Origin: Quercus robur
Lineage: Eukaryota; Streptophyta; Magnoliopsida; Fagales; Fagaceae
Reading direction: 5' to 3'
Assembly (NCBI RefSeq): GCF_932294415.1
Contig: NC_065535.1
Span: 24,330,782-24,394,781, forward strand
Length of the DNA: 64,000 nt
The notes below the pieces were generated by a model that was given only the letters and a program-made list of their open reading frames with translations, ran no database searches and was not told where the DNA came from. Below are positions 16,481 to 40,631 of this stretch, in pieces. The stretch's first letter is position 1. The number at the start of each line of letters is the position of its first letter. A program made the position numbers and the translations under genes.

Positions 16481-17437
16481 TTTTGTCTCACTGTGTGCTT
16501 CACCAATGACATTATAACACATGGCCCTTTTAATTTTTTTTTCTTTCCTAAAACTGACCTCCGTTTGTCTAACTCTTAAATCACGTGGGTTTTTTTTTTT
16601 TTTTTTTTTTTTTTTTGGTCTAACAAAATCGTGGCAGTAAGTTTTTCAAAAAATAAAAATAAAAAATAATTCTACAAGAACGAACCTTTATCAAAATGAC
16701 TCACCTAATTATTTTCAAGGAATCTTAAGATTTTATAAAAATATCTTATGAAAAGAAATTCAAGTGAGATAAATTATAAATACCAAAATATTATAGTCAC
16801 TAGCCATTTTTTTCTTCTCTTTCACCTTATTTTCTCTCTTTTGCTCTTTCTATAGTTGCAGATTCACCAAGAGTGAAAAGATTATCAACATTATCCAGAT
16901 TCACGGCGGAAGAATAATGTGGCTGAAGCTGTTGAAGATGAGAGGGCTCCAAGTGAAAGAAAAAAAGGAAAATTTTAAAGAGTTAAAATTTGAAGACAAA
17001 TGAACGTTAGCATTAAAAAAATAAAAAATAAAAGAGATGTGTGTAGGGGTGTCAATTTGGGTTAGCGTGTCGGGTTCGTGTCATGTCGAGGTAGGAGTAT
17101 TCGACTAAATGGCTCAACCCTAACCCGACCCATTTAATAATCGTGTCATGATCCTTCAACCTTAACCCGACCTGTTAATAAGGTGGGTTGACCTGACCCA
17201 ACCCATTTGACACGCTTAATAAACGAGTCGTGTTGGGTTGACACGAATGTAACACAATCTATTTCAACTTGCATAATATTAAATATAACATCCATCTAGA
17301 AATAATTTTTTTTACATCCCAAAAGGAGTGCATGCACTTCAAGTCTTTAACCCACATTCAAAATAATATAGTTCAACAAAAATATAATATTCATTTAGAA
17401 ATAAGTTCTTTATATTCCAAAAGAAGTGCATACACTT

Positions 17438-19342
17438 TGTTAAGGGCCATTTGTGAGAATCCAGGTAGAAAGAAGAAAAGCCCAATAATAAGGGCAGCAA
17501 AGAATTGGCAAGTAGATAGCAAAACCATTAGGTTCAAGCGGCAGGAATAATGAATCACAGGACCATAAAATAAACAAATGGATCTTGAAGAGGCAATTCG
17601 GCTTCAAAGAAGCCCAGAAAGGGAGAAATAGCATCCCATGGGCAGTGTATGATGTAGAAAAGTGAGAAAGGACCACCGCAAGCCCAAAGTAATGCAAACT
17701 AAGAAAGTAAGGGGTTTATAGCAGGCCCACGAACCCCAAGGATGAGAATAAGGTAATTGGGTCAGAGAAGCCCAATAAAGTTAGTAAAAGCCAATGGGAA
17801 TGCAGAGTTAGTAAAAGGGTCAAGGAAGCCCAAAGAAAGCAAGCGGGCCAACGTTACCCAAGAGAAAGACAAAAGGGACACAGGAACCCATAAGTAGGAA
17901 AAACCAGTGGCCATACCAAGCCACTGGGGGAAAGAGTAAACGGCTAGCCTAAAGAGGCCCCACAGGATTGAGTCATTACAGCAGGGATAACAGAACAATA
18001 TGGCAGGAAATGAGGGAAATCAAGAAGTGGGCCAAAGGAATATAGGGTCCATAATCAAATAAGGCCTAGCTCCTAAGAGGAGTGGGAAATCAAAAAGCAG
18101 CCCACATAAAAGGTCAAAGAAAAAGGACGGCAAGCTATGCAGGCAAGCCTCCAAACCACAACAGACGAATGGGCAACAGGAAAATTTTGGACACATATGG
18201 AAGGAAGGCACGCGCAAGGCCCAAGTACCACTAGCCTGTACCCAGCCAATACAGAGCATAGTGAGGTCGGGGGTCAAAGATTCAAAGGGCATGATTTGGT
18301 GGTGAGGAAAGGGGAAAAATCTATTTTTAATGTTCCGGCTCAGGCTCTTTCGAGGAGGTGTCATGCTGGGATGACTTGCTACCCAAAAGAAGTAAGCTGA
18401 ATTGAAATCACTAGGTGCATGTCATGAGGGATAGGGAGAGAGAAAGAACTTAAACTGTAGCAGGAAAGGGTGCCACGACAGACAAGCAAACAAAATACCC
18501 TTTTTTGTCTAGTGATGGGGGTGGCACACAGACGGAACAGTGATGGTCAGCCAGTACACCCAGACCAGACAAAGGAGGTTAAGGGTTAAAACAGTAAAAT
18601 CCAATCACGACAGGCACTATAAAAAGAGGGTCTTGCCGTGAACAGAGGACAGAGCAACAACAGGAACCTTGACTAAGAAATAGGAATTTGAAAAGAGAAA
18701 CCAAGAAATAGAAAAAGAAACGAGTGAGAAAGAAAGAAAGAAAACAACCAGAAAGAAAACAAAGTGAGAATTAGAACGGCAAGCATGCACCAGTAGATTG
18801 ATTCCCTCTCTCTCTTATGAAGTCCTGCTCTTTGTGAAAACCACAAGGAGCCTATGTGCTTAAACCACTCAGGTCCATTTCCCTCAGGGCAGGTAATCTC
18901 CACGGCAGGACTTTTCTTGAGAGATTAATTGCGTTGAGAAGGAACATTCTTTCCTCTCTGGCTTTGCTCCTGCGGACCAGACTTTAGTTGATTTTCTAAC
19001 ATTCTGATTAACCCATACATATTAATACTTGTTCACTTCTGTTCTGTTCTCTCCCTTCCATAAAAATGATTATTATTGCTACTATAATTGTGTTCAAGGG
19101 CTGTTTGGTCATTTTCCATTGAGTGGTCAGATATTTTATTATTATTATATTTGCCACAACTTGTCTAAAACAGTTTTGCCTGCCGTAAGCATGTCCCTGA
19201 CAAGCAAACCTGGCCTAGTTTGCACACAAGCCAAACCAACTTGAGTTGCAATTGGACCGGTCCCAACTTCCTTATCTAAAAAACTTGGACCTAGTGCCGC
19301 AGGAAGCAGCCCAACACCACTAGCACAGCCCACCACTTTACA
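17438..19342 (+). repeat. 5' LTR of the Tat retrotransposon
   Basis: It is 1905 bp and matches 30124-31735 plus 39801-39862 nearly throughout, with small indels; the right copy lacks about 90 bp near 17640-17760. It preserves the uninterrupted version of the site where the CACTA element landed in the 3' LTR (19276-19290). Confidence 0.92.
18618..18626 (+). promoter_or_regulatory. TATA box in the Tat 5' LTR
   Basis: TATAAAAAG sits in GC-richer sequence (GCACTATAAAAAGAGGG) and is conserved at 31064-31072 in the 3' LTR. It probably sets the U3/R boundary and the start of the genomic RNA just downstream. Confidence 0.6.
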
Positions 19343-19360
19343 ATTGGCGACTCCACTAGG
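19343..19360 (+). other. Primer-binding site, tRNA-Arg type
   Basis: ATTGGCGACTCCACTAGG directly follows the 5' LTR. The TGGCGACTC start is the form known from Ogre/Tat elements primed by tRNA-Arg; the ACTAGG part departs from the usual CTGGGG-like text by a few bases. Confidence 0.75.
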
Positions 19361-19380
19361 AAGTTGGGAAATAGATAGGG

Positions 19381-20679
19381 GTGAAAAAAAAAAAACAAAA
19401 CCCCTCGCAAACAATTCCATCAAAGTCTAGAATGACACGAAATATGAGTGTCATGCCCTCGCAAGCAAAGTCCAGGCCAACAACACCTCACCAACAGCAA
19501 CTTACCCAAACAGAGGGTGCTAACAGAACGGGGGCTGATCCTCAACCGCAACCAAGAATTCCCATGGACAATGTCAGTACTTTTATTGAAGTATTGCAAT
19601 CACCGCAGCACTCGCAGCAACAAATGATGGAAGAAATCCGTCAACTAAAAGCAGACAAGACGAAGGAGAAAGGGAGCCAGCATGACCCAAAACATGTGAC
19701 AGATAAAGAAGAGACACTAGCAGGAGGTGTCCCACGGAATGTAGAACAGCGTTTCATTACTATGGCTAAAGTAGCGGCTTTCCTGGAACAAGAGTGAGCC
19801 AGAACACCTAAGGAGAGGTTTTACGCACGAAGGCCTCCTTACCCACTAAAAGTACTCAGCAAACCATACCCCGAGAGGTATGAGCCGAGGGCCTTTGCAC
19901 AATACAATGGTGGGAAGGGAAGTGCAGTTGAGCACATGAGCAAGTTTATTGATACCCTTGGTCCTTACGCCACAGACGAAGACTTATGTCTTTGAGAATT
20001 TTCAAAGTCACTGTGTGACCGGGCATACACCTGGTACATTGGCCTAAAACCAGGATCGAACCCAACTTGGGATGACATGGTGGATGTATTTTGCACTAAT
20101 TACTTCCACGGAGAGGAAACAGTAACGCTTGCAACCCTGTAAGTGACCAAACAAAGGAATGGCAAAAATTTGATGGAATACATCAAGAGGTTCAAGGATA
20201 TAGCACTTGACTGCTATAACCATTGTGAAGAAAGAACCTTAGTAGAAATGTGTATGACTAACATAATTCGGGAATTCAGAGTAGTCCTAGAAAATCTAGA
20301 AATTTCCCAGTTTGCACACATGTTGCAGAAAGCCAGGAAGATGGCCCAGTCTGTAAAACCAAGCTCAGAAAAAAGAAACGTCCCGCAGGCTATGGCGGTG
20401 TCCACTGGAGAACGAAGAAGGAAAACTGAAGGGACAGAATATGATACGCCCCCACCCATACCATATACTCCTAAGGAGCTGGATGTGCTACTAGACAAAT
20501 GGATAGCAGACGAAATCTTTAAACCCAACCAGGTTTCCAGAGAACCCACGGAGGAAGAAAGAAGAGATCCTCGCTTCTGCCACCTGCACAACTATGTACA
20601 ACGTCCCACTATAGAATGCTGGACGCTCCACAGATTGGTGCACTGTAGGATTAAGGAAGGTACACTGGAGTTAACCTAG
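19381..20679 (+). pseudogene. Tat gag, three in-frame stops
   Basis: One frame runs the whole length but is stopped at 19795-19797, 19993-19995 and 20140-20142. Readable parts: a Gln/Pro-rich N-terminus with QQQLTQTEGA and QQMMEEIRQLKADKTKEKGS; the capsid-like core PYPERYEPRAFAQYNGGKGS, AYTWYIGLKPGSNPTWDDMV; KNLMEYIKRFKDIALDCYNH and FAHMLQKARKMAQSV; then a zinc-less C-terminal HNYVQRPTIECWTLHRLVH. It would form the particle in a live element. The stops fall at codons consistent with single-base change, so it is an old but largely unrearranged copy. Confidence 0.85.
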
Positions 20680-20832
20680 TAGGAGGTCCAAAGAAACCCA
20701 CTTTCGAACCACAAGGGAAAGGGTATAGCAACAGTGGTAATATACACAGCCTCGGGGGAGGACATGGAGGAGAATTTGGCCCTGCCTGCCGCAGCGATTA
20801 CCACTTTATAGCAAAGTGTCAAATTCAAAAAT

Positions 20833-21477
20833 TTGTTTGACCAGTTGGGACTCACATCAAAGGAAAGAAAGATAGCCACAAAGGCTTTGGTGAGTATCGC
20901 CTCCAGGGCAAGGGTAGAGTGCTTATCAACAAAATTACCAAAAGACAGAGCCCTCCTACAGGAATCAACCGAGATCACGTTTAGCAATGAGGATATGGCG
21001 GTGGGACACCCAGATCACAGAAGGCCTCTCTATTTGGTAGCATCCATAAACCAAATCCCCATCAAGAGAGCTTTGGTAGATACAGGTGCTTCCGTAAATC
21101 TCATTCCATTGAGCACCTTGCAAGTGGCAGGAATTTCAGAAAGAAAGATCCAAGGATGCCCAATCGAAGTGACTGGGTTCGACGAAAAGGGCGAGTACAC
21201 CGCAGGCTACATCCAGTTGTGGTCGAAAGTAGGTCCCATAGCTTCTTTAGTTTGTTTCCATATGGTCAGAATGGAAGTATCCTATTATGTGCTTTTGGGA
21301 AGGCCTTGGTTGCACAAACACCGATTGGTCTCGTCCACCTATCACCAGTGTGTGAAAGGAAGATTAAATGACAAGATGATACGTATAGCTGCAAACCCCT
21401 CGCCATTTGAGCAAGCAAAAGCTCACCTAGTGGAAACCATGTTTTACGACCAATGGACTCCATCTGGGGAAAGCTAG
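20833..21477 (+). pseudogene. Tat aspartic protease region
   Basis: A 214-codon open frame holds the retropepsin: KRALVDTGASVNLIPLSTL with the catalytic D-T-G-A-S (about 21077-21091), the flap region, and VSYYVLLGRPWLHKHRLVSS, the standard sequence after the protease. It is cut off from gag by stops at 20677-20813 and from the reverse transcriptase by frame changes at 21475-22094. The catalytic residues are intact. It would cleave the Gag-Pol precursor. Confidence 0.85.
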
Positions 21478-21509
21478 GTTTTAAAGCCACGAGGTACCTT
21501 CGTGCTTAG

Positions 21510-22094
21510 GTGGAAGATGTTGAAGGTGACCCAGAACCCGATCTAAGGGAGTTACTGGCACGAAAGAAGAAAGAAAAGAAGCGTCTGTCGCAGAATCAGA
21601 TAACACACCCTAGTGCATCAGGGTCCGAGGCCTTGATGCTAGGATTGTGTATAAGTTATGAAGGCGCATGGGGCCCACGAGTGAGATTCAAGGGGGCCCC
21701 ACCCAAGAATGGCAGCACGGGAGTTTGGAATGTTGTGTCGCTCAAGAAAGTTTGGGAAAAGAAGAAGAAAAGAATGGGGAAGTTATGGAAGAAAAAGACG
21801 CACAAGTTGTAGTAGAAGAAGAATTGGAAGAAGTTGACCTAGGGTCTGGTTCACAAGAACCAAGGCCTATCTCAATTAGTGCAAGTTTGACAAAAAAAAG
21901 AGAAGTCAGAATTGATACTCCTGTTGAAAGAGTTCAAATATGTTTTCGCTTGGGACTACAGTGAAATGCCAGGATTAGACCCTGGGCTAGTTGCGCATAC
22001 ATTAAATGTAGACCCAGAGGCCAAGCCGGTGGCCTAGCCTACCAGGATATTTCACACAAAAATAGAAGGGCAGATAGTCAAAGAAGTACAGAAA
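21510..22094 (+). pseudogene. Spacer between protease and reverse transcriptase, frameshifted
   Basis: Acidic, Glu/Lys-rich linker frames (VVVEEELEEVDLGSGSQEP at about 21810-21865) lead into the N-terminal edge of the reverse transcriptase in another frame: DYSEMPGLDPGLVAHTLNVD (about 21954-22013), then a stop at 22036-22038 and FHTKIEGQIVKEVQKLLAAG. It is the normal polyprotein order with at least one frameshift and one stop. Confidence 0.7.
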
Positions 22095-23819
22095 TTGCTA
22101 GCCGCAGGATTCATCAAGCCTATTCAACATCCTTACTGGCTATCTAACATAGTACCAGTAAAGAAAAAGAACGGCCAGATAAGATGTTGTGTAAATTTCA
22201 GAAATCTCAACAAAGCCTGTCAAAAGAACGAGTTCCCATTGCCAAACATGGATTTACTAATAGATTCTGCGGCAGGAAGCGCCATGTTTTCGTTCATGGA
22301 TGGGTTCAGCGGATACAATCAGATCAAGATAGCACCAAAGAATGTGGAGAAAACTGCTTTCAAAATACCTATGGGCAATTTCTACCACACTGTGATGCCC
22401 TTCGGGTTAAAAAATGCAGGTGCGACTTATCAACGAGCAATGACGGTCATATTTCACGACATGATACACCAGGAACTAGAGGACTATATGAATGACATAG
22501 TGGCTAAATCAAAGAGAAGAGAAGAACACTTCTACATGTTGAAAAGGGTATTCGAAAGATGCAGAGCCTTTAAGCTAAGAATGAACCCCCTCAAGTGCAC
22601 ATTTGGGGTGTCCTTTGGGAAATTTTTAGGTTTCCTGGTTCATAGCAGGGGGATAGATGTGGACCCAACCAAAGCCATGGCTATAGCAACTATGAGACCT
22701 CCGGTCACGGTAAAAGAGTTAAAAAGCTTCTTAGGAAAAGTCCCATACATCCGAAGATTTATTCCTGTGTTGGCATCAATCACCTCTGCTTTCACCAAGT
22801 TGCTCAAGAAGGCGCAAAGTTTTGAGTGGGGGGAAGCACAGCAAACAGCCTTCAAGAGGCTACAGCAGATAATGGTGAACCTCCCTACGGTACAGGCCCC
22901 TATCCACAAAAAACCATTGCTACTTTACTTAGCCACCAACTCGTATGCCATTGGTGCACTAATCGCTCAGGAGGATGGAGGTGGCATCGAGCAGCCAGTA
23001 TACTACATCAGCCACGCCTTAAAAGATGCAGAAACTCATTATCCAAGGGTGGAGAGAGCATGCCTGACCATTGTATATGCTTCGCAAAGGTTGCATCATT
23101 ATTTCTTGGCCTATGAAGTATGGCTGATGACTAAGTCCTATGCCATCAAAGTTTTGTTACAACATTCGATCCTCTTTGGCAAAATATCCCAGTGGTTGTT
23201 ACAATTGTCACAGTACGACTTGAGAATGGGGACACCTAGGGTGGTGAAAATTCAGGCTATAGCGGATCTATTGGCACAGTTTCCGGGAGAGAAAGAATTC
23301 TCGCTGGATGATGAAGTTCCAGGGAAAGTAGCCGTGGCGGAAGAGGTCAGAGAACAATGGGTAATGAAATTCGATGGGTCTTCTACTATCCAGTCTGGAG
23401 GGGTGGGAGTAGTCTTGTATCATGAAGAAAACGAGGCGGTGGCACGATTGTTCAAGCTGGAATTCCCCTGTTCAAACAACACAGCAGAATACGAAGCCTA
23501 CCTAACCGGGCTAGCCACGGCTCTCGAAATGGGAGTCAAACATTTGAGAGTATTGGGAGACTCAAACCTGGTCGTCTGCCAGACCAAGGGAAACTTTTCC
23601 TTAAAAGAGCCCAGTCTAGCCCCATACAGAGCAATAGCCCAGAGGATGGAAGGAAAATTCTCAACCTTCGAAATAGAGCATGCTCCAAGGAATGAAAACC
23701 GATTTACGGATGCATTGGCCTCATTAGGGTCGCAAATAGTTTTCAAAGGGGATAGCACCAGGATAGAAGTCAGTAAAAGGGAAGAATCCATCATTGAGGT
23801 GTTAAAGGAAAGGTTCTAG
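22095..23819 (+). pseudogene. Tat reverse transcriptase, RNase H and archaeal-type RNase H
   Basis: It is the longest open frame of the window (574 codons). The reverse transcriptase covers about residues 1-210: RCCVNFRNLNKACQKNEFPL, YNQIKIAPKNVEKTAFKI, MPFGLKNAGATYQRAM, and YMNDIVAKS where the family has Y-V-D-D, so one catalytic Asp reads Asn. A first, Ty3/gypsy RNase H follows (about 270-410: LLLYLATNSYAIGALIAQED, HALKDAETHYPRVERACL). A second RNase H (about 440-560) has the archaeal/plant-type acidic set: WVMKFDGSS, NTAEYEAYLTGL, VLGDSNLVV and RFTDALASLG. The second RNase H is a known mark of the Tat/Ogre/Retand group. The frame is open but joined to nothing upstream or downstream. Confidence 0.92.
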
Positions 23820-25507
23820 GAGGAACAATGCGAAAGAGATTGGGAGATCCCCATAAGGGAAGTCTTAATAAAGGGAGAAGACGCTATAGAATTAAAAATA
23901 CTAAAAGACTACGCCTTGGTAAGAGAGGAGTTGTACCGCAGGATGCTAGGTGGGGTCTTGTCCAGATGCATGGGGCAGGAGGAAGCCCAGAGAAAATTGA
24001 AAGAAGTACACGACAAGACTTGCGGGTCCTGCGGGGAAGTCAGTCTTTACCGCAGACTTCAAAGGGCAGGCTTCTATTGGTCAAGTATGGGTAAAGACGC
24101 AAATCAAGTCCAAACCCAGTGTAGGAACTGCCAGCTTGCGGCAGACAGAGAGGTAAGTTACGCTGTATTCATCAGCGAAGACTAGAGAAACCCTTTCATA
24201 CAATACCTAACAAAAGGCATCCTACCACAAAAGCACAATGAAAGATACAAGTTTAAGAGGTTGGCAACACGTTACTTTTTGCATAACATGGTCCTTTTCA
24301 AAAAAGGATATAATGGAGACCCTTTGAAGTGCTTGGGCCCTGAAGAAGTAAAAGAAATGATAAAAGAAGTACATTTAGGGGAATGTGGTGAACACTAGGG
24401 GAAGAAAAAGTTTTACAGATGCCTGCGATAGATGGACTACTACTGGCCTACCATGAAAAGAGATATGACAGAATTTATAAAAAAGTGCCACAGTTGTCAA
24501 ATACAAGCCAACTTGATTCATACCTATCCGCAAAATTTACATAGCATGGTCACCCATAGCCCTTCCACACTTGGAGGCTAGATTTAGTAGGTCATACCTA
24601 TCCGCAAAATTTACATAGCATGGTCACCCTATAGCCCTTCCACACTTGGGGGCTAGATTTAGTAGGACCAGTTAACCCACCATCACATGGATACATATAG
24701 ATATTAGTGGCTACAGAGTATTTTACTAAGTGGGTAGAGGCAGTACCACTCCGTAAGGCCACAGGAGGAGCAATGGCAAATTTCATCAACGAAAATATAA
24801 TTGTAAGGTTTGGGATGTCCCACAGGATCATCAGTGACAATGGCACACCATTTGTCAACAATGACATGAGGAAGATGTTAGAGTTCTACCAAGTCAAGCA
24901 CCACCGGTCGTCGCCTTACTAACCTCAAGGGAATGGGCAAGCAGAAGCAACAAAAAAAACTCTCATAAAGATTATCAGTAAGATGAGCCAAGAGTATACA
25001 GGAGGATGGGCGACACACTTGCCAGACGCTCTTTAGGCTTATAGAAAATCACCAAAGTCAGCCACAGGCTTCTCACCTTTTTCCTTAGTCTACGAAACTG
25101 AGGTAGCAAGCCCAGCAGAAATAATGACTCCGTCCCTGAGAGTTGTGCAGATGCGAGAAAAAGAAAAGGAGGGAGAAGTCTTTGCGGCAGAAAGGTGTGA
25201 AGATCTAGGACTTGATGAAAAGAGAGAAAAGGCCTAGGAACGCAGCCGCAGATACAGACAAAAGATAACTGAAGCCTATGGTAGGATGACCAAGGAGAGA
25301 GTGTTCGCAGAAGGACAACTTGTCCTAAAGGTGGCAGACTATGTCAAGCGAGGCATGGCAGGACCATCTAAGTTTGCACCGAAGTGGGAAAGACCCCTTG
25401 TGATAAGGGAGGCACATCGAAGTAGGTATTACCGTCTAACTCAAATGGATGGCAGAAACTTAATGGATCCCATCAATGGGAAGTGGCTGAAACGTTATTA
25501 TGCCTAG
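23820..25507 (+). pseudogene. Tat integrase, several stops and a 74-bp duplication
   Basis: The remains are, in order: a zinc-finger-like segment (HDKTCGSCGE..., 24010-24150; and KCHSCQIQANLIHTYP, about 24485-24530), the catalytic core with VATEYFTKWVEAVPLRKATG, HRIISDNGTPFVNNDM and GNGQAEATKKTLIKII (the second Asp and the Glu of the D,D-E triad), a stop at 24921, GFSPFSLVYETEVASPAEI, and the C-terminal SH3-like part (25286-25507, GQLVLKVADYVK, GKWLKRYYA). The first catalytic Asp should lie in the segment hit by the 74-bp tandem duplication (24519-24667). It would insert the cDNA in a live element; this copy cannot. Confidence 0.88.
24519..24667 (+). repeat. 74/75-bp tandem duplication inside integrase
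   Basis: CATACCTATCCGCAAAATTT starts at 24519 and again at 24593; the two units differ by one inserted T and one A/G change. Because 74 is not a multiple of three it shifts the frame. Confidence 0.9.
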
Positions 25508-25830
25508 GGAAAAGAGTTATGTGGTTGTCCTTTTCTTTTGTCTTGCTAAAAGTTTTTATGTTTCCTTTACTTTTTTCCTTCAAGTGATTAGGTCACAGGA
25601 CAAAAAATTATAACGTGCTTTCATGAATATGTAATGAAAAAGTACGAAGTATTAGCACTATGTCATAGCAATAGTAAAAGTAGTAGCAAAGTGTAGCATC
25701 ATAATTACAAACCCAAACTGTGGCAAACACATGCCAAATAAGTGCTATAGGTAACATATAAGTGTTCTAGAGGAAATAACAAAAGAAGGAAAGCAAAAAA
25801 AAAAAAAAAGGTAAGGGAACTACATCATCA

Positions 25831-28800
25831 TCAATGGAGTCCGGAAATGAGAGTCTGATCTCCAAAATGACTAGGTCCACCAATGTTAGAAAGAAGGCGC
25901 TCGCGACGACCCTCCAAGTCCGCCACCTCCTTCTTTAGAATCTCGATTCGGGCATCTATAGCATCAACAACTGGCTAAACTCTCCTCATAAAAAGGGCTC
26001 GAGCAACCTCACGGAGGTGATCTAGAACAAACCCCACAGCAAAACCCACACTGATAAGCTCCTGAATCGCGGCCCTCCACTGCAGGATCCTCTCGGTAGA
26101 GACAGTGTCAATGAAGCTGTGCTTAATGTCGTTCAGCACACATCCCAACATCTTCAAGAAGTGCTCCCTGGTAGAACGGCCAAGACAGAATCCTTGCATA
26201 AAATCACCACGGCTGCTGTAGATCATCACTAAGTGGGAAACACAATCCTCGGGAACTCGGAAGCCATAAAAATCCACGTAAGGAGGACTAGAAGCCTAGA
26301 AGTCTGCCGAGTCAAGGTCATTAACCTCTGGCTGATCAAAGCGGATGAAGAAGGCTATAGTATCATTTGCAGGCTCTAGGATGGTAGCAGAACTGCTGCC
26401 CACCTCAAACTAAGAAAGGGCAGTGGGAAGCGGACCTATTAAGAAAAACGCAAGGTAAAATGAGAAGCCATGGTTTGGGAAGAAAAGACTTACAAAAAAA
26501 AAAAAAAAACAAAATGAAAGGGAAGATAAAAGGGAAAGGAAACTTACCGGGACCAGCAGGAATGGGGGCTGCAGGTACGGCAAAAACAAGTACTGTAGGC
26601 ACAGCAGAATAGGTGCAGTGGATACAACAGAAAAAAGTGCAGAAAGTGCAGCAGGAATACGCCCTACAGGTATGGCAGGAGCAGGCATTCCTACGCCTAT
26701 TGCGACTCTTGGCCCCTCAAAAGTCTCTGCAAGTAGGGAGATAGGCATACAGATGAAACGCAAATACATATAAGAAGAAAAAAAAAAGAAAAAAAAAAAA
26801 GAAAAGAAAAGAGTGAACTTAGCAAAAAAGAAGAGAAAACACATACCCATAAAGTCAGGCTCGGGTGGAGCACTCTCCTCTTTGTCAGAATCAGAAATTC
26901 TCTTCTTCAGGATAGGCATATCATCAGGATCCTTAAGAATGTTATCGGACCCCTCAAAGGATAAGTCTGTGTCAGGACCACGTGTAGCGGAATTGGAAAT
27001 GGAGGAAGGAGTAACAACTAGAGAAGCACCATCCTTTGCAGCCTGGGAGAGAGCCGCAAAAGGGTCACTTGTGGAAATAACAAGTGGAAGAACAGAAGAA
27101 GCGGTCTTGGTCTGAACGGTAGCAGGAGAAATGGCTCCCTCTAGAGGAGCAGGTGTCTTGGCGGAAAGAGGTATAGTCTCACCAACCCCTTCAGTATGAG
27201 TACCCTTTTCTCTGGGTACCAACTCGACGGAAGGGGTGGGAGCTTTAGCAGGAACCTTATGTGCAGCAGTAGAGGGAGTAGGTCTTGTAAATGCCACATC
27301 GGCCCCATCAAAAAAGCCTTCCATGGGTACACCCATGGAGGCGAAGATCTCCTCGCAGTAGGGTGATATACGGAGAGAGGTTCGGACTCCTCCTAAAAAA
27401 AAAAAGGGAAATATAAATACTGATGTGAAGACCAAAGGAACTATTAACTATATGAGGCAAACAAAAGACATGTGGCAGAGGGAGCACGTACGAGGAAGAA
27501 AAAAAAAAAAAAGAGAAGTGAAGAAAAGAGATGTACCTCAAACTCGAGCTCATCAAGTAGAATAGGACGGGTAACTGACGTTTCCTCCTTATGCTTAGAC
27601 TAAAAATAGAGGGGGACGGAAGTTAGCAAGGTTAGCCGAAAGAAAGTTAAGAGGTATTTTCTATAAATAAAAATAAATAAATAAATAAAAAAAGATAACT
27701 TACCCTCCGCTCAGCAGCAGACACAGGATGAGGATTTGTCTTCCTTTTGCTGTCTCGGGTTCTATTGGCAAGGAGAGCACTTGTAGGTGGCAATAGAGTG
27801 GCAAGCTTGGATTTACTTGAAATTTAAGCTTGACAGGAGCTTTCTTACTTGGTGTAGAAATGTTTGTCACTTTAACCTTTTTCTCCCAACCGGGAGGATA
27901 ATCGCCAGCGTGCCAGTACCATCCTTCTTTCTCTTCATCCCATTCGAAGATGACTGACCGGTTCTGTTTTCTGGCATATACCAAAGCAGACTTGGAAGGA
28001 AGAAGCAAGCAAAGGTTAACCGAAATAACCATATTGAGCCCATCAGGGGGAATAAGAGAGAAGTCGTACCTGCCCACTAGCTCATTCTCGAATGTAGTCA
28101 TCACCGCTTGCCAATAACCATGCATAGAAGGAGTGCAGAGGCCCTCCCTTAGTGAACCAGGAACTGTAACTGCACTGAAACGCTGCCTTCAGAATTCAAA
28201 GGCAGTATGCCGCAGAAAAGGATGAACCGAAGTAGGAGACTCTATAAGGAAGGAAATGTCATCGGGAATATCCTGATCTAACCCAAACTGTCTTCTTACT
28301 CGGTTAGCAGGATAATGAACGAACTTGATGCCTTCATCGGCTAAGTAAGGCAGCCATCTGACGTTAGTGGCCGCCAGATAAGTGATCCTCGTCTCGTCAA
28401 AACCAGTCAAGGGAGTAGTAGTCCCAACAGTATCGACAAACAAACCCATGGCAGAATCTATGCATGTATAATTTGCACCCAAATTTCTATAAGCCTTCCA
28501 AGAAAAACCAACGCCTTCATCAAAAGACTCAACAACAGAATAACCAATAGGCTGCAAGCTAGACCAGCGGAAAGCCAACAGAAAATCAGACTTAAATCTA
28601 CCATAGAAATCAGTGATTACCCTCGAACATGATTGGTATTTATCTAGCAAAACGAGCAGGTCTACACTTTGTCAAATATTGGGCACAATGCTCAAATAAC
28701 AACTGCTGTAGAATAGTACAGTGGACGGAAGAGGTAACTATATGACAGGATCTGCCTGACTCTCGTCACTCCGCAGGATGTCTAATTGGACATATAGATG

Positions 28801-30111: not shown

Positions 30112-30123
30112 CAGGGGGCTAAA
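30112..30123 (+). other. Polypurine tract of the Tat element
   Basis: CAGGGGGCTAAA ends exactly at the 3' LTR start. It would prime plus-strand synthesis. Confidence 0.6.
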
Positions 30124-31735
30124 TGTTGAGGGCCATTTGTGAGAATCCAGGTAGAAAGAAGAAAAGCCCAATAACAAAGGTAGCAAAGAATTGGCAAGCA
30201 AATAGCAAAATCATTAGGCCAAGTGGCAGGAATAATGAATCACAGATCCATGAAATAAACAAATGGGTTTTGAAGAGGCAAGTGAGGTAATTGGGCCAAG
30301 GAAGCCCAAAGAAAGCAAGCGGGCCAAGGATGCCCAAGAGAAAGACAAAAGGGACACAGGAGCCCATAAGTAGGAAAAACCAATGGCCATACCAAGCCAC
30401 TGGGAGAAAGAGTAAACGGCTGGCTTAAAGAGACCTAGCAAGATTGAGTCATTACAGCAGGAATAACAGAACAATATGACAGGAAATGAGGGAAATCAAG
30501 AAGTGGGCCAAAGGAATATAAGTTCCATCATCAAATAAGGCCCAGCTCCTAAGAGGAGTAGGAAATCAAAAAGCAGCCCACACAAAAGGTCAAAGAAAAC
30601 AGATGGCAGGCGAATAGGTAACAAGCAGATTTTGGACACATATGAAAGGAAGGCACGCACAAGGCCTAGGCACCACCAACTTATACCCAGCCAATACAGA
30701 GCATGGTGAGGTCGGGGGTCAGAGATTCAGAGGGCATGGTTTGGTGGTGGGAAAAGGGGAAAAATCTATTTTTAAGGTTCCAGCTCAGGCTCTTTCGGGG
30801 AGGTGTCCTACTAGGATGACTTACTATCCAAAAGAAGCAAACTGAGTTGGAACCACTAGATGCATGCCATGAGAGATAGGGAGAGAGAAAGAACACAGAC
30901 TGTAGCAGAAAAGGGTGCCACGGCAGATAAGCAAACAAAATACCCTTCTTTGTCTGGTGATGGGGGGTGGCACACAGACGAAACAGTAATGGTCGGCCAA
31001 TACACCCAAACTAGACAAAGGAGGTTAAGGGCTAAAACAGTAAAATCTGGTCACCGCAAGCACTATAAAAAGAGGGTCTTGCCGTGAACAGAGGACAGAA
31101 ACAACGGGAACCTTGACTAAGAAATAGGAATTTGAAAAGAAAAATCAAGAAATAGAAAAAGAAACGAGTGGGAAAGAAAAAAAGAAAACAACCAGAAAGA
31201 AAACAAAGTGAGAATTAGAACGGTAGGCATGTACCAGTAGATTGATTCTCTCTGTCCCTCATAAAGTCCGGCTCTCTGTGAAAACCACAAGGAGCCTCTA
31301 TGCATAAACCACTTAGGTCTGTTTCCCTCAAGGCAGTTAATCTCCATGGTAAGACTTTTCCTGAGAGATTAATTGCATTGAGAAGGAACGTTCTTTCCTT
31401 TCTGGCTTTGCTCCTGCAGACCGGACTTTAGTTGATTTCCTAACATTATAATTAACCCATACATATTAATACTTGTTCACTTCTGTTCTATTCTTTCCCT
31501 TCCATAAAAATGATTATTATTGCTGTTGTAATTGTGTTCAAGGGCCGTTTAGTCATTTTCCACTGAGTGACCAGATATTTTATTTATTTTATTATTGTTA
31601 TTATGTCTGCCACAACTTGTCTGAAACAGTTCTGCCTGCCGTAAGCACGTTCCTAGCAAACCTGGCCTAGTTTGCGCACAAGCCGGACCAACTTAAGTTG
31701 CAGCTGGACCGGTCCCAACTCCCTTATCCAGAAAA
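30124..31735 (+). repeat. 3' LTR of the Tat element, first part
   Basis: It is colinear with 17438-19279 apart from small deletions. It is interrupted at 31735 by the CACTA element and resumes at 39801. Confidence 0.92.
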
Positions 31736-31754
31736 CACTACAAGAAAATCAAGC

Positions 31755-31995
31755 AGTTGCGGCGGACCTATTGCGGCGGGTGCAAAAACAGCCGCTATAG
31801 GTCGCCTACTGCGGCGCATTTTGGGCCTGCCGCTGTACATGAGATCTATTGCGGCGGGCCAATAGCCCGCCGCAATAGCTATAGTATTTGCGGCGTGCTA
31901 CAGCGGCGGGTCATTGACCCGCCGTAATAGACCTGTTTCAGCGGCCCAAGCTTAGATATAGCGGCGGGTTAATGACCCGCCGCAATAGACCCTTA
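31755..31995. repeat. Subterminal GCGGCGGG repeats, left end of CACTA
   Basis: Direct and inverted copies of the form (T/A)GCGGCGGG-spacer-CCCGCCGCAATAG occur here, forming short GC-rich hairpins. Such subterminal repeats are the transposase-binding zone in known CACTA elements; that role here is inferred. The mirror set lies at 39315-39785. Confidence 0.75.
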
Positions 31996-31999
31996 CATT

Positions 32000-34900
32000 T
32001 CCCCCCCTACACCTAAATTTTCCCTCTGTTTATTTTTGTCCCTTTTCATTTTTAGCGCGTTTTCGTTTTTAGCCATTTCAATATTTCATTAGTCTCCCAC
32101 ACACACACTCTCTCTCTCTCAGACACTTTGAAAATCTCTTCACTATCTCATCTCTACCACTACGCACAGCCACAGCCACCACCACCCACAACCACAACCA
32201 CCACCACCACCACCACTCAAAAATCGAGCCTAGTTAGGTCCAAAAACAAATGGGTCAGGTCTAGCCTGACCCATTTCTCTTATCATTTCTAACCCTAGTG
32301 GTTCATCCCCCTAATCTAGAACCTTCCCTCTTTGCTTGAGCTACCTGATCTCATCACCTCAAACCGACACTGCCACCACAGTATCTCGACGACGCCGCCG
32401 CCACACCCCCAGCCAACGGTAAAGTAATCTCCTTCGCAGATCTCCTTTCTCCCCTTCTCCTCTCAAACGCTGATCTCCCTTTCTCCCCTTCTCCCCTCAA
32501 ACGCAGATTAGCTCTTGAATAGGATTTGAAGAATCCAAGAATTTATATAGAAGCTGCAGTGACCAAAAATAATTTTAAAAAAATACTTATCATTTTCGTT
32601 CGCACTCTCTCATAAACCCAGTCACAGTCCCACTGTGATTTAAGATATTTCCAATTGAGCTAAAGAAAGATGCTTCTTCTTCTGTTTTTTTAGCTGAAAT
32701 TCGAAAATTCTGATTACTATATTTGTTTGTTTCAGACTTGTTTTTCATATGCTGAAGTGGGTTTTTACTTTTAAGGTATTTTTGGGGGGCTTAAATAAAT
32801 TTGGGTGGTTTGAGCAATTGAGCTGGGACCGTTAGATTCACAAGGGATTGGAGTGCAGAAGCAAGTACCTCTGAGGAAGCATCCAGGGAGAGAGAAGCTT
32901 TGCTTGGCAAGCTGGTTGTTTACTACTTTTTGAATCGGTATGTTCCATAGCCTAGGCATTTACGATAAATCTGTGAATTATTTTAAGGAAAACCATATCT
33001 TTATAACATCTATTTTAACTTCTAATTGGGTCTAACACAATTATTGGTTCTGTTGTGTTTTTCTTTTATTAATAACCATGGCTATTATATGAGCTCAATA
33101 AGTTTGATAAATGTATCTAGTGGATTGTTCTTGTGAAAGAATACATGAACAAGAATTGCTTATTTGATTGAAGCAGATTGTGGTAATTACAATATTACAC
33201 ATGGATGATGAAAACTTTGATTACAATGTTTTTAATCAATTTACTGCTATGTGGCCATTATGATATTCCCTAGTACTGCTGGATTGTAATCTGACAGGTA
33301 GAGAAGAAGGGCCTTGTTGCATGCATGGGATGATAACATTGAAGTATTACTTATATATACAAAAGAATCATTTGAAGTTACAGAGTGAATGTCATTTTGT
33401 ACCATAGATACTGTAGATTTTTGGTAAATGGTGGATAAAAAAAAAGTTTGAATAGTGAAATTCCTTGTAGCATGTGTAGAAAAACCACAATTTATCATCC
33501 CTTACTAGAATATTTTTATGAAAAAAAAAAAAAAAAAAAGCTGACATCCTCATGTTTTGATATGCAGGATTAGGGAATTCAGTGAATGGGCCCAATGTCT
33601 TGTACTTGATTTGATTAATTTTGTGTGTGTGTGTGTGTGTGTGTGTTGTGTAGAATATGGAATCAAATGTTGTCAGCATGGGGTAGTGAGGATTAATTGT
33701 TGAGATGAATAGGGGTCAAGGTGGCGAGAAATGATGTGATTGATTTGGGGATTAATGGAATGGAGTATTTGGTTTCGGAGGATATATTTGCTGACTTCCA
33801 TTTGAGATTCGTGTTACCATCACTTTGTTCAATTGGGAGCATAAATATATGTCAATATTTTAACATTTTTAAATGGGCACTTGGTTTAACTTTAGTTGTA
33901 TGGATGATAATTGAATGAATTTTGAACTCATTGGTGAAAAGAAAAGTGTATGGACTTTGCCTTTGCTCCCCTTTAATGGGTTTATATTGAGATTCTTCTT
34001 GGCATTTTTTATTCGTTTATTTTGTCTTTTCATGGACCTCATGGTATAAAGTGGCTAGAGTTAGTTTGCTTATGTCATTGATTATACGAGCTTGAGCTTC
34101 TTCTACCAGGTTCTATAAGAATGATATCTGTAATTTTGTTAGATATTCTTAGTTAGGAAACAGATATTGGAATAGTTTTGTGAAACTGTTGCTGAATTTT
34201 TTGGTCTATTGATTGCACGTGTAGTTCAAAACTTGCCTGTACATCCCTTTCTCTTTTACTAAGTGAGTGATGTTCTTCTTCTTGTACTTCTTGTATTTTA
34301 TATGTTTGTTTGGGTTACACAGGAAAGGGTGGTGAGGAATAAGGAGGTGGACTCAAAGGGTGTCGATTCTGCTCCAGGTTTGCTTTCTGGGTATACTTAT
34401 TATTTATTGTTGGATTTCTGTACTGTACTGTAGTGATTGGGTTTGTCTCTGAAAACAAGAACTTTGATTTTTATTTAGTTGTTTATTTAAGGATTAAGTT
34501 GCGTGTGTCTTTAGATAATGAAGTAGTTTAGTTGGTTATTTATTTATTTGCTTATCGGATATGTGATCATATTCTTTCGTTATTTCAATATATTTTTTTT
34601 TATTATGCGAATATGATATTAGTAGGAATCGACCAAGTAATACTATTTTTAATAGTTTCTAAAAAAAAAAAAAAAAAATACTATTTTTAATATACACAAA
34701 CCAGATCAGGCCATATGTCTGTAATTGTGAAAAAGAAATTTGTGGTCCTAAAATTTATTTTTTTTGGATCTGGGGTGTTTTGTTGTCTGGGATTCGATGC
34801 ATAAGCACCTCAACAATGGACTTTTTGTGTTATATGGGTTTAAGTAGCTCCTGTAATTTTTGCCATGCCAAAAGTTAATCCCCCTGTTGATATTTGATAA

Positions 34901-36375
34901 GACTTAGTTGACTGTTGATATTTGGATGGAGACTAATTTTTTAGAATTTGGCGCCTTGCTTCACTCGGGCTAACGCCTTTTTGGCACCTCGTCGCCTCGG
35001 GCGATACAAGGCCTTGGCACCTTAAGGGCGCCTTTCACCTTTGACTACCTTGTTCTAACTTTCGAATTATCAAAAATAAATGTCGCTCGTGTGATTTGAT
35101 GGTGATATGGGTCAAGATGGACCTCTTTTACTGTGAATGATCTAATAAATATATCATATAGTAGACTACTATCAGTTACATGTTTCTTTTTTTAACTTCT
35201 CTATCTGTCTTTATTTTCAAGATTACTTCTTTACAATAGTACCTAATCTGCTAACAATATAGATACCAGCTTATGCTCAGGGTAAAGAAAAAAAATGAAA
35301 GATGGCTTTGCATATTAGTAATTTTTGGTAAGGTTTCATAGTCTTTAATTTAATTTTATTTTTTCCTAGGAAAAAATGTAGAGGAGAAGCCAAACTTGCT
35401 CATTCCAAGAATTGCTACTGAATCATGAAGTAGCTTAATTAGCTCAACTGAACTTGAGCTCTCAACTGTACATAACATTTTTGCTAATAAATCTTAGCCA
35501 AAACAACTGGAGCCTACCAACAGTTTAAACATTAGAGACCCCAAATTTCAATTCTTTAGAATGCAATCTCTTCTTGCCACTAAGAGGGACTCCAAACAGC
35601 TTGACAGTACTGTTTGTATCCTCAGTTTACATTCTTGATGTTTCATTTTGTGTCTAATTCTTTATTCATTTACTCTATTTTAAACTTTGGTTCTTTTATG
35701 ATGTGATGTACTATCACTATTGGAATATAAAGTATAACACTAAGAGGGGATACAAAATTTTTATTTTGAGAGATGTTTTGCATTTTGCACACTAAGATCT
35801 CCATTTGGGTGATCTCATGTCTTTCCAAAAAAGAAAACACACTTCAATTTTTCTTAAGGTTTCTAAAGGGTAGAACAATGGTCTTAGGACTACAGTTTAT
35901 AAAGCAAAGCCATCAATGATTTGACTCTCTCACTCTTTTAACTGATACTACTAGTCTTTAAACCATCCAAAGGAATATATATTTTAAACGTACTTCTGAC
36001 GTTCACTTGTCATCAAAGGCTAGAGCAAGTGAAAAACACACTAGAATGTATCCAAACTGATATAAACCAACTCATCAAACACAAACAGTTTGCAGAAACT
36101 AATTAGAGGTATGGTTTATAGAGAAAAATATAATCGATAAATAAAGCTGTATGTGTGTGTTTGGTGTATAGGTATTTATGCCAATTGAACTGAAAAGAAA
36201 AAGACAGGGAAAAAAGCACCATCCAGCTTACTTATCTCAATTAACATGATTTGAAAATCACCCATTGGAAAAAGACTTTTTCATGGTGTCAAAATAGAGT
36301 GACCAGGTTAACCAGAGACTTGTGTGTGTGTGTGTGAGAGAGAGAGAGACAGAGAGATTAGTGTTGTATTCTCAC
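32000..36375. other. CACTA interior: leader-like and intron-like sequence, possible small exons
   Basis: CT-rich and CCACCA-rich text (32100-32410) is followed by T-rich intron-like sequence. Two exon-like segments with AG/GT borders occur: about 34322-34377 (VVRNKEVDSKGVDSAP) and about 35371-35429 (EKNVEEKPNLLIPRIATES then stop). Neither is recognised. A GC-rich dispersed-repeat scrap (GGCGCC, CCTCGGGCGA) lies at about 34948-35040 and a (GT)n at 33622-33646. Confidence 0.35.
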
Positions 36376-36589
36376 ATAGGTATCAAGCTGCCTAACAAAG
36401 CTTGAAAAGTTGTTGTGCTTGAAGTAGTTTGGTAGGAGATCTCTAGCAAACTCAGGAGGCCTCCACACAATGTGATCAGTGCGAGGGTCATCAACCAGTT
36501 GGTATGTCTGTCAGAAATGGTGCTGGCATTGTCTTTTGAGACTCCACTGAGAACACCATCTCTTCACACCTCTCCATTGTGAAAGCCAT
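36376..36589 (-). pseudogene. Captured first-exon fragment of a class B4 heat-shock transcription factor
   Basis: From ATG at 36589 the minus strand reads MAFTMERCEEMVFSVESQKT, then MPAPFLT, a 2-nt deletion, [14 protein letters not shown], then directly [20 protein letters not shown] and [10 protein letters not shown]. This is the HSF DNA-binding domain; the MERCEEMV start is that of HSFB4. Normal HSFs have about 11 more residues (an SWG...FVV segment) between HIV and WRPPEF, so an in-frame internal deletion is present as well as the frameshift. The text stops where the HSF intron normally lies. It is therefore a captured exon-1 end, not a working factor, carried inside the CACTA element. Confidence 0.88.
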
Positions 36590-37129
36590 TACCACCAGAC
36601 TATTATGCTTCTTCTTCTACCACATATGTCTTTACAATGACTCTCTATTCATTCACTCCAACCCCGCAACATGTTTAAAGCTCTCTATCTCTCTCTCATA
36701 AAGAATTTTCTAACTTTAGGAAACAAAAACATATGACCATGTCACTAAAATAAAAGTTAATCCCTGTGCTCCCTAGTTTTTTACCTTTAAAAAGTAGATG
36801 GGCATGTTAGTAAACTATTTCATTTTTTTATTTCTAGAATAACTATATGTAATAAGATCTTATGAGCTATTAATTAGCTATTGATTATTCCCTTGACTGC
36901 ATTTGACTGCATTTGACAGAAGAGAAAAGTATCACTATTTTTATTTTATTTTAATTATTTTTATGAATGAGAAAAGTATCACTATATATGGTGCTAATGT
37001 TATACAGAGCACAAACGCGTTACTGATTTTGCTTAGACTGATTTTTATTAGGGAATGATTATTTGATCAATGAATACATTGTGGTACTGTGTGGAGCTAC
37101 AACCAGGACCAGAGTTGAGAGAGCAAGAA

Positions 37130-37274
37130 AGGGTCTGACTTGTAATGCTTGGTTCGGTCTTGGAGTGCCTGAGCTGGTTGTTATTGCTGGAGATGCAGCT
37201 CTGGTTTTTGGGCCCAAGAAGTTGCCTGAAGTAGGAAAGAGTATTGGCAAGACTGTCAAGAGCTTCCAACAGGT
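37130..37274 (+). pseudogene. Captured exon of thylakoid TatA/Tha4
   Basis: The frame reads RKGLTCNAWFGLGVPELVVI, AGDAALVFGPKKLPEVGKSI and GKTVKSFQQ, then a GT donor (GTTTGTAAG). This is the transmembrane helix, the F-G-P-K-K hinge and the start of the amphipathic helix of TatA/Tha4, the pore subunit of the twin-arginine translocase of thylakoids. Asp replaces the usual hydrophobic residue in the AGxAAL part of the helix. The transit peptide exon is not seen; a possible continuation (EAAKRGGPPIKDQE, about 38729-38770) is weak. It is a captured exon inside the CACTA element and unlikely to make a working protein. Confidence 0.85.
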
Positions 37275-37275
37275 T

Positions 37276-39314
37276 TGTAAGTTCAAATTGAGTCAGTTTA
37301 TTTTGTTGGGATATGAATGAAAGTTTTGGTTTTTAATGTTGTTTGGTTCTCTGGGAAATGAAAAGGGGAGAATCTTATACTCAAGAATTCCATATGCAAT
37401 AATGTGGGAAATTTGATTTACAATGAAACTTAATGTACTTGTTAAGAAAAACTTATCAAGAAAATATAGTTGTTGAGAAAAGTGAGGAAAAGGGTAGCAA
37501 AGAAAATTGGTATACTATGGCTTATCCACAAAAAAAGGAAGAGAAAATTGGTGTCTTATGTTTTTATATGTTGTTTTGGTTTCCAAAAGAAATGGCAAAT
37601 TGAACTGAAGGAAGCTTAGTACTTGTATTGGGGTATGATTGAGGGCAAAAAGGGATGCTGAATTAAAGAAAAAGAAAGCTTGAGACTTGTGTTTGTAGAA
37701 ATGATTTTGTTCTCTTAAATTTACTTAACAGTTGTTTTGGGGGTCAGTTGTGGAAGTTTCTGATTTCGCAGATAATTAAAGAATGAAATTCTTTGAATTT
37801 AAGATAATGTGTTGTCAAAGTCCAAACTTTGTAATTATTGGAATACATATTAATTTGCTTCTTGTGAAATTGTTTTAAATTTTGATGTCTTGCTATTATG
37901 CTTTATTACAAAGGTACAGAAAGAAAGTCATGTACTGAGATATTCTATATGATTGCATTTTTTTTGGTCGTATCATGAGTTTTCTATGAAATATTTGATC
38001 TTACCAGCTGTCATTAACTTATTATCTATTTTGGCATTTCAAAGTTCAGTTTAGTTTTAACTTTTAGGTGAATTCGTGGGGGTGATATATGGATTAGTTT
38101 CATACTTGCTATTAACATCTGGAATTGATTTCAGAAAATATTTTGGTTGATGATAATGTAAGGACCTCTTCATAATCCTTGACACTCCCCTTGTGTTTGA
38201 GGGAGAGAAGGTTAGGCTTGAAGATTAGATGTTGAGGGAAAGAACAACCATGAATAAATGCTTTCAAATGGTTTTAGCTAATATTGAGATTGTTGACTGT
38301 TTTTTGTAATATTGGATGATTGTTGTTGAGTTGTTTTTATTTGATTAATTCATTTTAAGGGCTTCTCTCTATCTTTTTCACACGTGGAATGCTAAAATGG
38401 AATTGCATATTTAAAGAGATGTCCATTCCTAAAGAATATTGCTAGTCATGATGTTATAGTTACCAAATGTATTGATAACTTCTCTATGCATTTAAATTCA
38501 TTGTTTGATTAGGAACATAGCTAAAAGTGAATGATTAAAGGCTGGTGAAGGAAAAAGATTTCTAGAAGCACCATGTTATTAATAGATGTTTATGGAATTA
38601 TGTGGTGACACCTTTGCATCCTTTGAATTCTATATCAAGGGACCTCCCAACACCAATCATTTTGATTTGATCCCATCAGTTGTCTTGTTGTGCCTCTGCT
38701 TTGTAATTTCAAAATTTCAAAACTAGGAAGCTGCAAAGAGAGGTGGTCCTCCCATAAAAGATCAAGAAACATGTCTTCATTTAACTTGTTCCCATTTTTT
38801 ACTTTGGTAATATTTTCTTGTCATTCTATTTCATTTATATGCACTTATTAAGTAATCCTACTTTGTATGTAGGATGCTCCTCTAATCGAACAATCTCCAA
38901 CTCTTCCCAAATCATCAACCAAGAAGGTTATAAGTTTTATCTTGGAGTTCTTGGACTTTTTTGTGTACAGAGAACTACGGAAGAACAATCGCATTTTTTG
39001 CAAGTGTTGAAAGATATTTTTAAACACTTTAGAATTTTAATTATAGTATTAGATTAATTTTAGCGGTTGTTTTATTTAAATGACCACAACTTTTTTTTGT
39101 TAATTTTAAGATGGTGGTTATAGACAATGTTATGTATTTAATAATATATTTCTATGTTAATATTACGTTAGTTTTAAGACATTTGTTGTGTTAATTAGTT
39201 ACATTTGTGGTATTGTGTTAGTAGAGTTAAAATTATTATAGGTTTTTTTGTAATAAATTTGTGAACTATTTATTTATTAGCAAATAGTAGTTTTAAAACC
39301 CACGAAAAAAATAC
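37276..39314. other. CACTA interior right of the TatA exon
   Basis: T-rich, intron-like sequence. A short exon-like piece is at about 38729-38770 and another possible one at 38874-38966; neither gives a recognised protein. No transposase is seen. Confidence 0.35.
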
Positions 39315-39785
39315 CTATAGCGGCGGTCAAAAAGCGCCGCTAAAGGTGCATATTTTACATTTTAAATAAATACCTACAGCGGCGCTTATCGCTTGCCGCT
39401 AAAGGTTGAAACATATAGCGGCGGGCATGAACCCGCCGCTAAAAGTACAATTAGCTGTTTTGATTGATTGTCTATAGCGGCGCTGTTTGCCCGCCGCTAA
39501 AGGTAGACACCAATAGCGGCGGGCACCACCCCGCCGCTAAAAGTCAATGCCATGAATTCTGATCACGTATAGCGGCGGTTTTATGCCCGCCGCAATAGAC
39601 CTTCACCCGCCGCTAAAAGGTACATCTATAGCGGCGCTTTTCACGACCGCCGCAATCGACCTATAGCGGCACTGCAACACCGACGGGATGGCCCGCCGCA
39701 ATAGCACCCGCCGCAGTAGGTCGAATGTACCTTTAGCGGCGCTTTTTTGGGCTTTAGCGGCGGTTCTGGCCCGCCGCAATAGCCT
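39315..39785. repeat. Subterminal GCGGCGGG repeats, right end of CACTA
   Basis: A dozen or so alternating direct and inverted copies of TATAGCGGCG and CCCGCCGCTAAA are spaced about 20-50 bp apart, more numerous than at the left end. Confidence 0.8.
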
Positions 39786-39800
39786 GTTTTTCTTGTAGTG

Positions 39801-39862
39801 AAACTTGGGCCTAGTACCGCAGGAAGCAGCCCAACACCACTAGCACAGCCCACCACTTTACA
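39801..39862 (+). repeat. 3' LTR of the Tat element, last part
   Basis: It continues the LTR after the CACTA insertion (AAACTTGGGCCTAG to CCACTTTACA) and matches 19282-19342. It is followed by the CACTT target duplication. Confidence 0.92.
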
Positions 39863-40631
39863 CACTTCAACCCAAATTCAAAACAATATAGTTTAACAAA
39901 AATAAAATAACATAGTTCAACAAAAACAAGTGGGTCATATCATGCAATCAAGAAAAACACAAGGCACATGGGTTCAAAGTTTATTGTACAAAAGCATTAT
40001 GCAGAAAATATAAACACATTGGAGAGAGAGAAATAACCGATTTGAGAGTTGACACTTTGAGTTTGAGAATTGGGCGTGAGAAGATTAGTACGGTTGAAAT
40101 TTAAAAAAAAAAAAAAAGAAAAAAGAAGAAAAAAGGAAGAAGAAGAAGAAAAAGAAGAAGATATTTATAAGAAGGTTTAGAGATTTAGGATTTGTAAGGT
40201 TTAGAGATCTAGGATTTGTAAAGTTTCAATTTTCAATTATATTCCTTGTAAATTTTTGTAATTACTCACTTTTCTTTTTTAAATTTAAAATATATGTTGA
40301 ATATAAAAGGTATTTGATAAATCTAAAATAAGATGAATATTTATTTATTATACGAGTTAAACAGGTTGTGTTAAGTGGGTCATTTTGTATTGACACAAAT
40401 AAATTGGCGTGTCAAACGTGTTTATTGCGGATTACGTGAGTTGACCCGCTTATGACACGTTTCTTATCGTGTCGCTTTTGGGTCAACCCATTTATAACCC
40501 AAACCCATTAAGGCCCAACCCTAACCCGAAATAACCCGTGTCGGGTTCGTATCGTGTTCATGAGTTGGGTTGAACATTGACACCCTAGATGTGTGTCATA
40601 ATAAAACAGGTGAAGCACAATGTGAGATAGC

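Follow-up and report, generated by a model that had tools for sequence, protein, structure and literature searches.

A stack of four nested transposons in Quercus robur and a Pack-CACTA element carrying nested captures among DNA from seven loci

Nesting has been reported to be common among plant long terminal repeat (LTR) retrotransposons (PMC6911290). Plant Tat elements are described as being marked by two RNase H domains (PMC5348765), and the plant mobile domain (PMD) is given as the most frequent extra domain in plant Gypsy elements (PMC9289625). Among DNA transposons, the Pack-CACTA or Pack-TYPE elements (PMC8903248) and the soybean Tgm-Express1 (PMC1947982), which carries fragments of five genes, hold captured host DNA. 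In Arabidopsis, Pack-CACTA capture has been explained by the fusion of neighbouring CACTAs through aberrant excision, which traps the DNA between them (PMC13317346, PMC8903248). The repair of breaks has been suggested as an origin of captured DNA (PMC3260210), filler DNA has been attributed to strand annealing at transposon excision sites (PMC4423477), and a 2026 review allows that unlinked gene fragments might still be captured by DNA transposons through a mechanism yet to be discovered (PMC13317346). Here, we analysed a stretch of 64,000 nucleotides of the Quercus robur genome (C2:24330782-24394781; hereafter the window), in which a long terminal inverted repeat (TIR) element, a hAT element, a putative Tat-type retrotransposon and a Pack-CACTA lie inside one another within one monomer of a 345-bp repeat. 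We consider it highly probable that the locus represents four stacked insertions and a Pack-CACTA cargo drawn from seven loci with nested captures, for which the patching of breaks is the presumed process.

The stack is ordinary in kind and is a clean case of nesting, as transposon nesting, PMD-bearing Gypsy elements and multi-locus Pack-CACTAs are all kinds that are already known. It resembles the nested plant LTR retrotransposons of PMC6911290 in its successive insertion of element within element and differs from them in that DNA transposons and a retrotransposon share one stack; in addition, the CACTA element sits in an LTR, and in that study of LTR elements the LTR and the integrase domain were the least frequent targets. 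The CACTA element is like the Pack-CACTA or Pack-TYPE elements (PMC8903248) in its CACTA ends, its 3-bp duplication, its intron-bearing fragments of several genes and the absence of a visible transposase, and it is also like Tgm-Express1 (PMC1947982). In contrast to both, it has seven donor loci, three of which are nested in one another.

A preliminary description of this stretch had claimed four nested transposons, and the nest was confirmed to be real. The three target duplications that it had called exact, flanking the hAT, Tat and CACTA elements, were all exact when the junctions were read directly. Estimated simply as 4^-n, the probability that n bases match exactly next to an element whose ends were fixed independently is about 1.5e-5 for 8 bp, 1e-3 for 5 bp and 1/64 for 3 bp. 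Far more support than these figures provide comes from the empty sites, which the same description had suggested seeking and which are known for three of the four insertions. First, the 5' LTR of the retrotransposon runs unbroken through the site at which CACTA interrupts the 3' LTR. Second, at the position occupied by Tat in the window, all 5 of the hAT siblings examined (of 39) are uninterrupted and contain CACTT once. Third, the 345-bp monomer that received the outermost element is uninterrupted in 28 copies at 7 of 7 loci elsewhere in the genome, when up to 5 substitutions in 26 bases are allowed. For hAT in the outer element, the evidence consists of the 8-bp target duplication and of an outer inverted repeat that continues across the hAT site; hAT therefore landed in the right inverted repeat of that element. 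These duplications and the three empty sites support the order of insertion proposed earlier, namely TIR element, hAT, Tat and CACTA. It is hardly credible that the whole stack is an artefact of assembly, as the target duplications, the matching LTR breakpoints, the hAT ends and the continuity of the TIR are all concordant. The four layers of the preliminary description were thus real, and what it overlooked was the outermost layer, i.e., the repeat monomer, and the captured genes of CACTA.

We propose that there were four successive insertions into one repeat monomer. A long-TIR DNA element of approximately 0.64 kb would have entered the monomer, a non-autonomous hAT belonging to a large family would have entered the right inverted repeat of this element, a Tat-type Ty3/gypsy retrotransposon carrying PMD reading frames would have entered the hAT, and a Pack-CACTA would have entered the 3' LTR of the retrotransposon. 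Each insertion was an ordinary transposition, as shown by the ends, duplications and empty sites; for the hAT step, the evidence is the target duplication together with the interruption of the inverted repeat, and the duplication around the outer element itself is not clear. The genome searched comprised 786 Mb in 42 contigs (denoted C1, C2 and so on), and the searches scored the best candidates, i.e., 40 of 184 for the nested cargo and 40 of 907 for the hAT left end.

The ends of the innermost element are CACTACAAGAAAA and TTTTTCTTGTAGTG, and both the CACTA...TAGTG ends and the subterminal repeats of CACTA (DTC) elements are present. The 3-bp target duplications in this family are AAA for the element at 31736-39800, ATT for a second element in the window and TGA for a sister copy on C4. 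The longest frame in the element is no more than 107 aa. None of the 7 frames scanned against Pfam, out of 60 frames of at least 45 aa, encodes a transposase, and transposase scraps are possible in the other 53; one scanned frame gave a sub-threshold match to SNRNP200_wHTH (E 0.0037). The element is classed as non-autonomous. Between its ends lies captured host gene DNA whose donors were identified, which makes it a Pack-CACTA. Its cargo includes an HSF DNA-binding fragment on the minus strand at 36361-36510 (PF00447, E 2e-10) and a TatA/Hcf106 fragment at 37042-37317 (PF02416, E 4.9e-14). Because intron sequence is kept in both the HSF and TatA pieces, DNA rather than mRNA was copied. The exact CACTA end pattern was not found in the examined stretches at any of 8 loci (the seven donors and a relative at C3:11.666 Mb). 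The full sister copy at C4:58.945-58.954 Mb has the same arrangement at 95-99.6% identity, and it shares with the window copy both gaps (2 nt and 33 nt) that separate the HSF exon from its donor. In addition, it retains 1301 bp that have no counterpart in the window copy, part of which is covered by donor F. The cargo was gathered before these two copies parted.

The most interesting part of the stack is a set of nested captures within this cargo. Donor C lies between two pieces of donor B, and these lie between two pieces of donor A, giving the order A(B(C)B)A, which is shared by the C4 sister. At the donor loci, the two A pieces are 72 bp apart and the two B pieces are 336 bp apart, with the same strand and order as in CACTA. 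This spacing indicates that 72 bp of A was replaced by B together with C and that 336 bp of B was replaced by C. When the four nested joints were read by eye, the filler amounted to 2, 0, 28 (mostly a GT repeat) and 0 bases, and terminal sequence of CACTA was seen at none of them. Nested capture did not appear in the literature listings searched, which covered open-licence papers.

In the mechanism that we propose, breaks inside CACTA would be repaired with sequence copied from ectopic donors, the joints sharing little or no homology, and each new piece would replace a short stretch of a piece captured earlier. It is quite possible, if still short of probable, that CACTA elements in this way capture distant gene fragments by repeated break patching, each patch inside an earlier one, so that the nesting would record the order of capture. 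The fusion of neighbouring CACTAs by aberrant excision, trapping the intervening DNA, is the mechanism published for Arabidopsis Pack-CACTA (PMC13317346, PMC8903248), and the window does contain two family members 17 kb apart in the same orientation. However, the published scheme would predict side-by-side blocks with CACTA terminal remnants between them, while the four nested joints have no such remnants and lie inside earlier donors from which 72 and 336 bp were removed. Thus, the nested captures fit the patch repair of breaks better than the fusion model, and we regard fusion as a decidedly unlikely origin of the cargo. A different alternative is that ordinary filler insertion at breaks produced the A-B-C chimera at another place in the genome, from which it was then captured whole. 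A copy of 713 bp at C3:11666118-11666830 has A-left, B-left and part of C (32562-33261 of the window) at 98.0% identity to the window copy, compared with 99.3% between the window and the C4 sister over the same cargo stretch, and no CACTA ends were found beside it in the examined 10 kb. However, this copy breaks off within C, and the second halves of B and A are missing from it, so that in its present form it is a fragment of the chimera and not the source. We consider a ready-made chimera somewhat doubtful.

A similar nested arrangement occurs in the second Pack-CACTA of the window, which shares its ends and an inner stretch with the first and carries different cargo otherwise. It contains an exon of GTP cyclohydrolase I (PF01227, E 3.4e-7) and also matches several other loci; its donors are mostly matches from the search listing, with 4 loci examined in detail. 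A sister at C6:11.88 Mb is 98% identical over the 6841 bases searched. Its cargo shows a D(E)D-like order, in which a piece from C1:1.18 Mb (92%) lies between two D pieces. These D pieces lie 7 bp apart in a C39 relative with an 82-87% match, and a second C39 locus has matches to both D flanks close together. The features of the window are collected in Table 1.

Table 1. Features of the stack and its surroundings, in window coordinates (TSD, target site duplication)
Feature	Position	Strand	Basis or remark
Left piece of 345-bp repeat monomer, target of outermost insertion	16407..16453	+	matches seven loci elsewhere up to 16453
Outermost long-TIR element	16451..40644 (left limit 16451-16458, right ~40644)	.	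~0.64 kb without hAT
Left inverted repeat of outer element	16486..16609	+	alignment
Right inverted repeat of outer element, inner part	16956..17043	-	remainder at 40596-40627
hAT target duplication GATGTGTG, left	17036..17043	+	read directly
Non-autonomous hAT	17044..40587	+	TIRs; 1114 bp excluding the insert
Tat target duplication CACTT, left	17433..17437	+	read directly
5' LTR, uninterrupted empty site of CACTA	17438..19342	+	read through and LTR alignment
Tat internal region	19343..30123	+	protease (below Pfam cut-off), reverse transcriptase, two RNase H domains, integrase zinc domain; frames in separate pieces
Antisense PMD (PF10536) in two Tat frames	28189..29239	-	Pfam
3' LTR, split by CACTA	30124..39862	+	LTR alignment
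CACTA target duplication AAA, left	31733..31735	+	read directly
Pack-CACTA, 8065 bp	31736..39800	+	cargo derived from seven separate loci (four contigs)
Donor A (C37:11.157 Mb), left piece	32599..32629	+	31/31
Donor B (C37:7.937 Mb, WRKY gene), left piece	32632..32839	-	96%
Donor C (C41:15.875 Mb, Adaptin_N gene)	32840..33613	-	95%
Donor B, right piece	33642..34293	-	96%
Donor A, right piece	34293..34392	+	97%
Donor E (C41:7.366 Mb)	34390..34873	-	88%
HSF gene fragment (donor C1:17.32 Mb)	35111..36907	+ (gene on minus strand)	donor 92-96%
Donor F (C3:2.491 Mb)	36921..37040	-	93%; C4 sister keeps longer F stretch
TatA/Hcf106-type gene fragment with intron (donor C3:19.686 Mb)	37076..38270	+	95.4%
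CACTA target duplication AAA, right	39801..39803	+	read directly
Tat target duplication CACTT, right	39863..39867	+	read directly
hAT target duplication GATGTGTG, right	40588..40595	+	read directly
Right piece of 345-bp repeat monomer	40644..40961	+	repeat homology
Second Pack-CACTA of the family, same orientation	56950..64000 (on to window coordinate 66252)	+	TSD ATT; 17 kb downstream of first

The retrotransposon that holds CACTA spans 17438-39862, inside the hAT, and its LTRs start with TGTTRAGGGCC and end with CCACTTTACA. The RVT_1, RT_RNaseH and RVT_3 domains share one frame, while the protease (below the Pfam cut-off) and the integrase zinc domain are in adjacent frames. A reverse transcriptase followed by two RNase H domains is the common feature of the Tat lineage as described (PMC5348765), and the domain order therefore suggests a Tat-type Ty3/gypsy element. 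The two PMD matches (PF10536) had E values of 7.9e-19 (above the Pfam cut-off) and 1.7e-5 (below it); the domain is common to this element and the described PMD-bearing Gypsy elements (PMC9289625), and here it is antisense and in separate frames. Between the 5' and 3' LTRs, 1433 of 1596 aligned bases are identical, as are 60 of 62 to the right of CACTA. The 163 differences in 1596 (10.2%) consist of 141 transitions and 22 transversions. Absolute dating from the LTRs was rejected as unreliable in view of these 141 transitions and 22 transversions and of the conflict with the divergence of hAT. We also observed that approximately 209 bp of the 5' LTR (17602-17810) is absent from the 3' LTR and that the internal region contains a 75-bp tandem duplication (24518-24666) whose units are 97% alike.

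The ends of the hAT element are TAGGGGTGTCAAT and ATTGACACCCTA. Its left end has 907 candidates in the genome, and each of the best 40, which were scored, matches over the full 389 bases at 92-100% identity (window copy included). The 8-bp target duplication and short TIR of hAT (DTA) elements are present in the window copy and in all five siblings examined, each sibling being flanked by an 8-bp duplication of its own. In front of TAGGGG, the siblings carry one T more than the window copy. The window copy shows private changes at 27 of 774 positions relative to the five siblings, counted over columns where at least 4 of the 5 agree and with the segment at about 39930-40217 excluded as non-homologous. 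Sibling L062 contributes only 455-456 positions to this count, as its right part could not be placed and its start motif was not found. An earlier count of 135 private changes in 1005 was dropped because it had kept the non-homologous segment. This segment differs from all five siblings and may represent either another subfamily or replaced DNA. In this respect, the element is like the Ds-l4 type of hAT with filler DNA (PMC3260210), which is also non-autonomous, about 1 kb long and has an internal segment unlike its siblings; in contrast to that type, there is a large family of similar copies here.

The outermost element is bounded by the repeat monomer, because 16407-16453 and 40644-40961 are two parts of one 345-bp monomer present elsewhere in the genome and homology to it is confined to the sequence left of about 16453 and right of about 40644. 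The small outer TIR element of the preliminary description is thus real, and its limits at 16481 and 40631 were wrong, as the monomer homology lies further out. Arrays with a 345-bp period were found in 3 of the 4 repeat loci (of seven) that were run through Tandem Repeats Finder (TRF), and the fourth, L004, has a period of 219 bp. The inverted repeat is approximately 124 bp long (16486-16609 against the reverse complement of 16956-17043 plus 40596-40627, skipping hAT), with an alignment score of 88 compared with 52 for the best of 500 dinucleotide shuffles. Such a long TIR would suit a Mutator-like element; by eye, the candidate 9-bp duplication (16449-16457 and 40645-40653) is degenerate, with 6 of 9 bases alike at best. 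The outermost element might instead be a local inverted duplication and not a transposon. In a search that skips common words, the only genome match of the left arm was itself, so that no second arm copy and no empty copy lacking hAT were found; the middle of the element has only two weak relatives (74% over about 160 and 94 bp), and the target duplication is not clear. However, the homology to the repeat monomer stops and resumes at both ends as in a simple insertion, and a MITE-like (miniature inverted-repeat transposable element) repeat at 41083-41183 matches the outer left arm at 66% (E 1e-6), in an alignment that begins approximately 10 bases outside the left limit. A local inverted duplication is accordingly rather unlikely, and we retain the reading of a long-TIR DNA element. 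A Helitron was also considered and rejected, as the element has long inverted repeats and no Helitron ends were seen by eye, no dedicated search having been made. The MITE-like repeat belongs to a 194-bp tandem at 41026-41462, an arm of which is similar (66%) to the outer left arm. Further downstream and outside the stack, there is an RNase H-like frame at 51061-51633 (RVT_3, E 2.7e-24).

Several points weigh against the account of four stacked insertions with a cargo gathered by patching. First, because hAT is older than Tat in this order, the LTR pair should differ by no more than about twice the hAT private rate if rates were equal. The LTR divergence of 10.2% exceeds this bound of about 7% approximately 1.5-fold, on small counts, and LTR dating fits the nesting poorly; our guess is that faster decay of methylated LTRs explains the excess. 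Second, the outer element has no second copy, and its assignment to a class is hence unproven and only provisional. Third, better donors may have been missed, as the scoring was confined to the best candidates. Fourth, the copy at C3:11.666 Mb without CACTA ends means that the nested assembly may not have formed inside CACTA. Finally, in the second Pack-CACTA, the match to D is only 82-87%, the closest GTP cyclohydrolase locus examined (C38, 95.6%) covers 205 bases only, and the C39 D locus may be a paralogue of the true donor.

The cargo of this CACTA element matters more than the stack in which it lies, as it bears on the capture of unlinked gene fragments by DNA transposons raised in the review cited above (PMC13317346). 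The combination of nested capture, sister copies and identified donors makes the mechanism of capture testable from sequence alone across the CACTA family. If the proposed mechanism is true, break patching would supply the second route of gene capture that has been missing.

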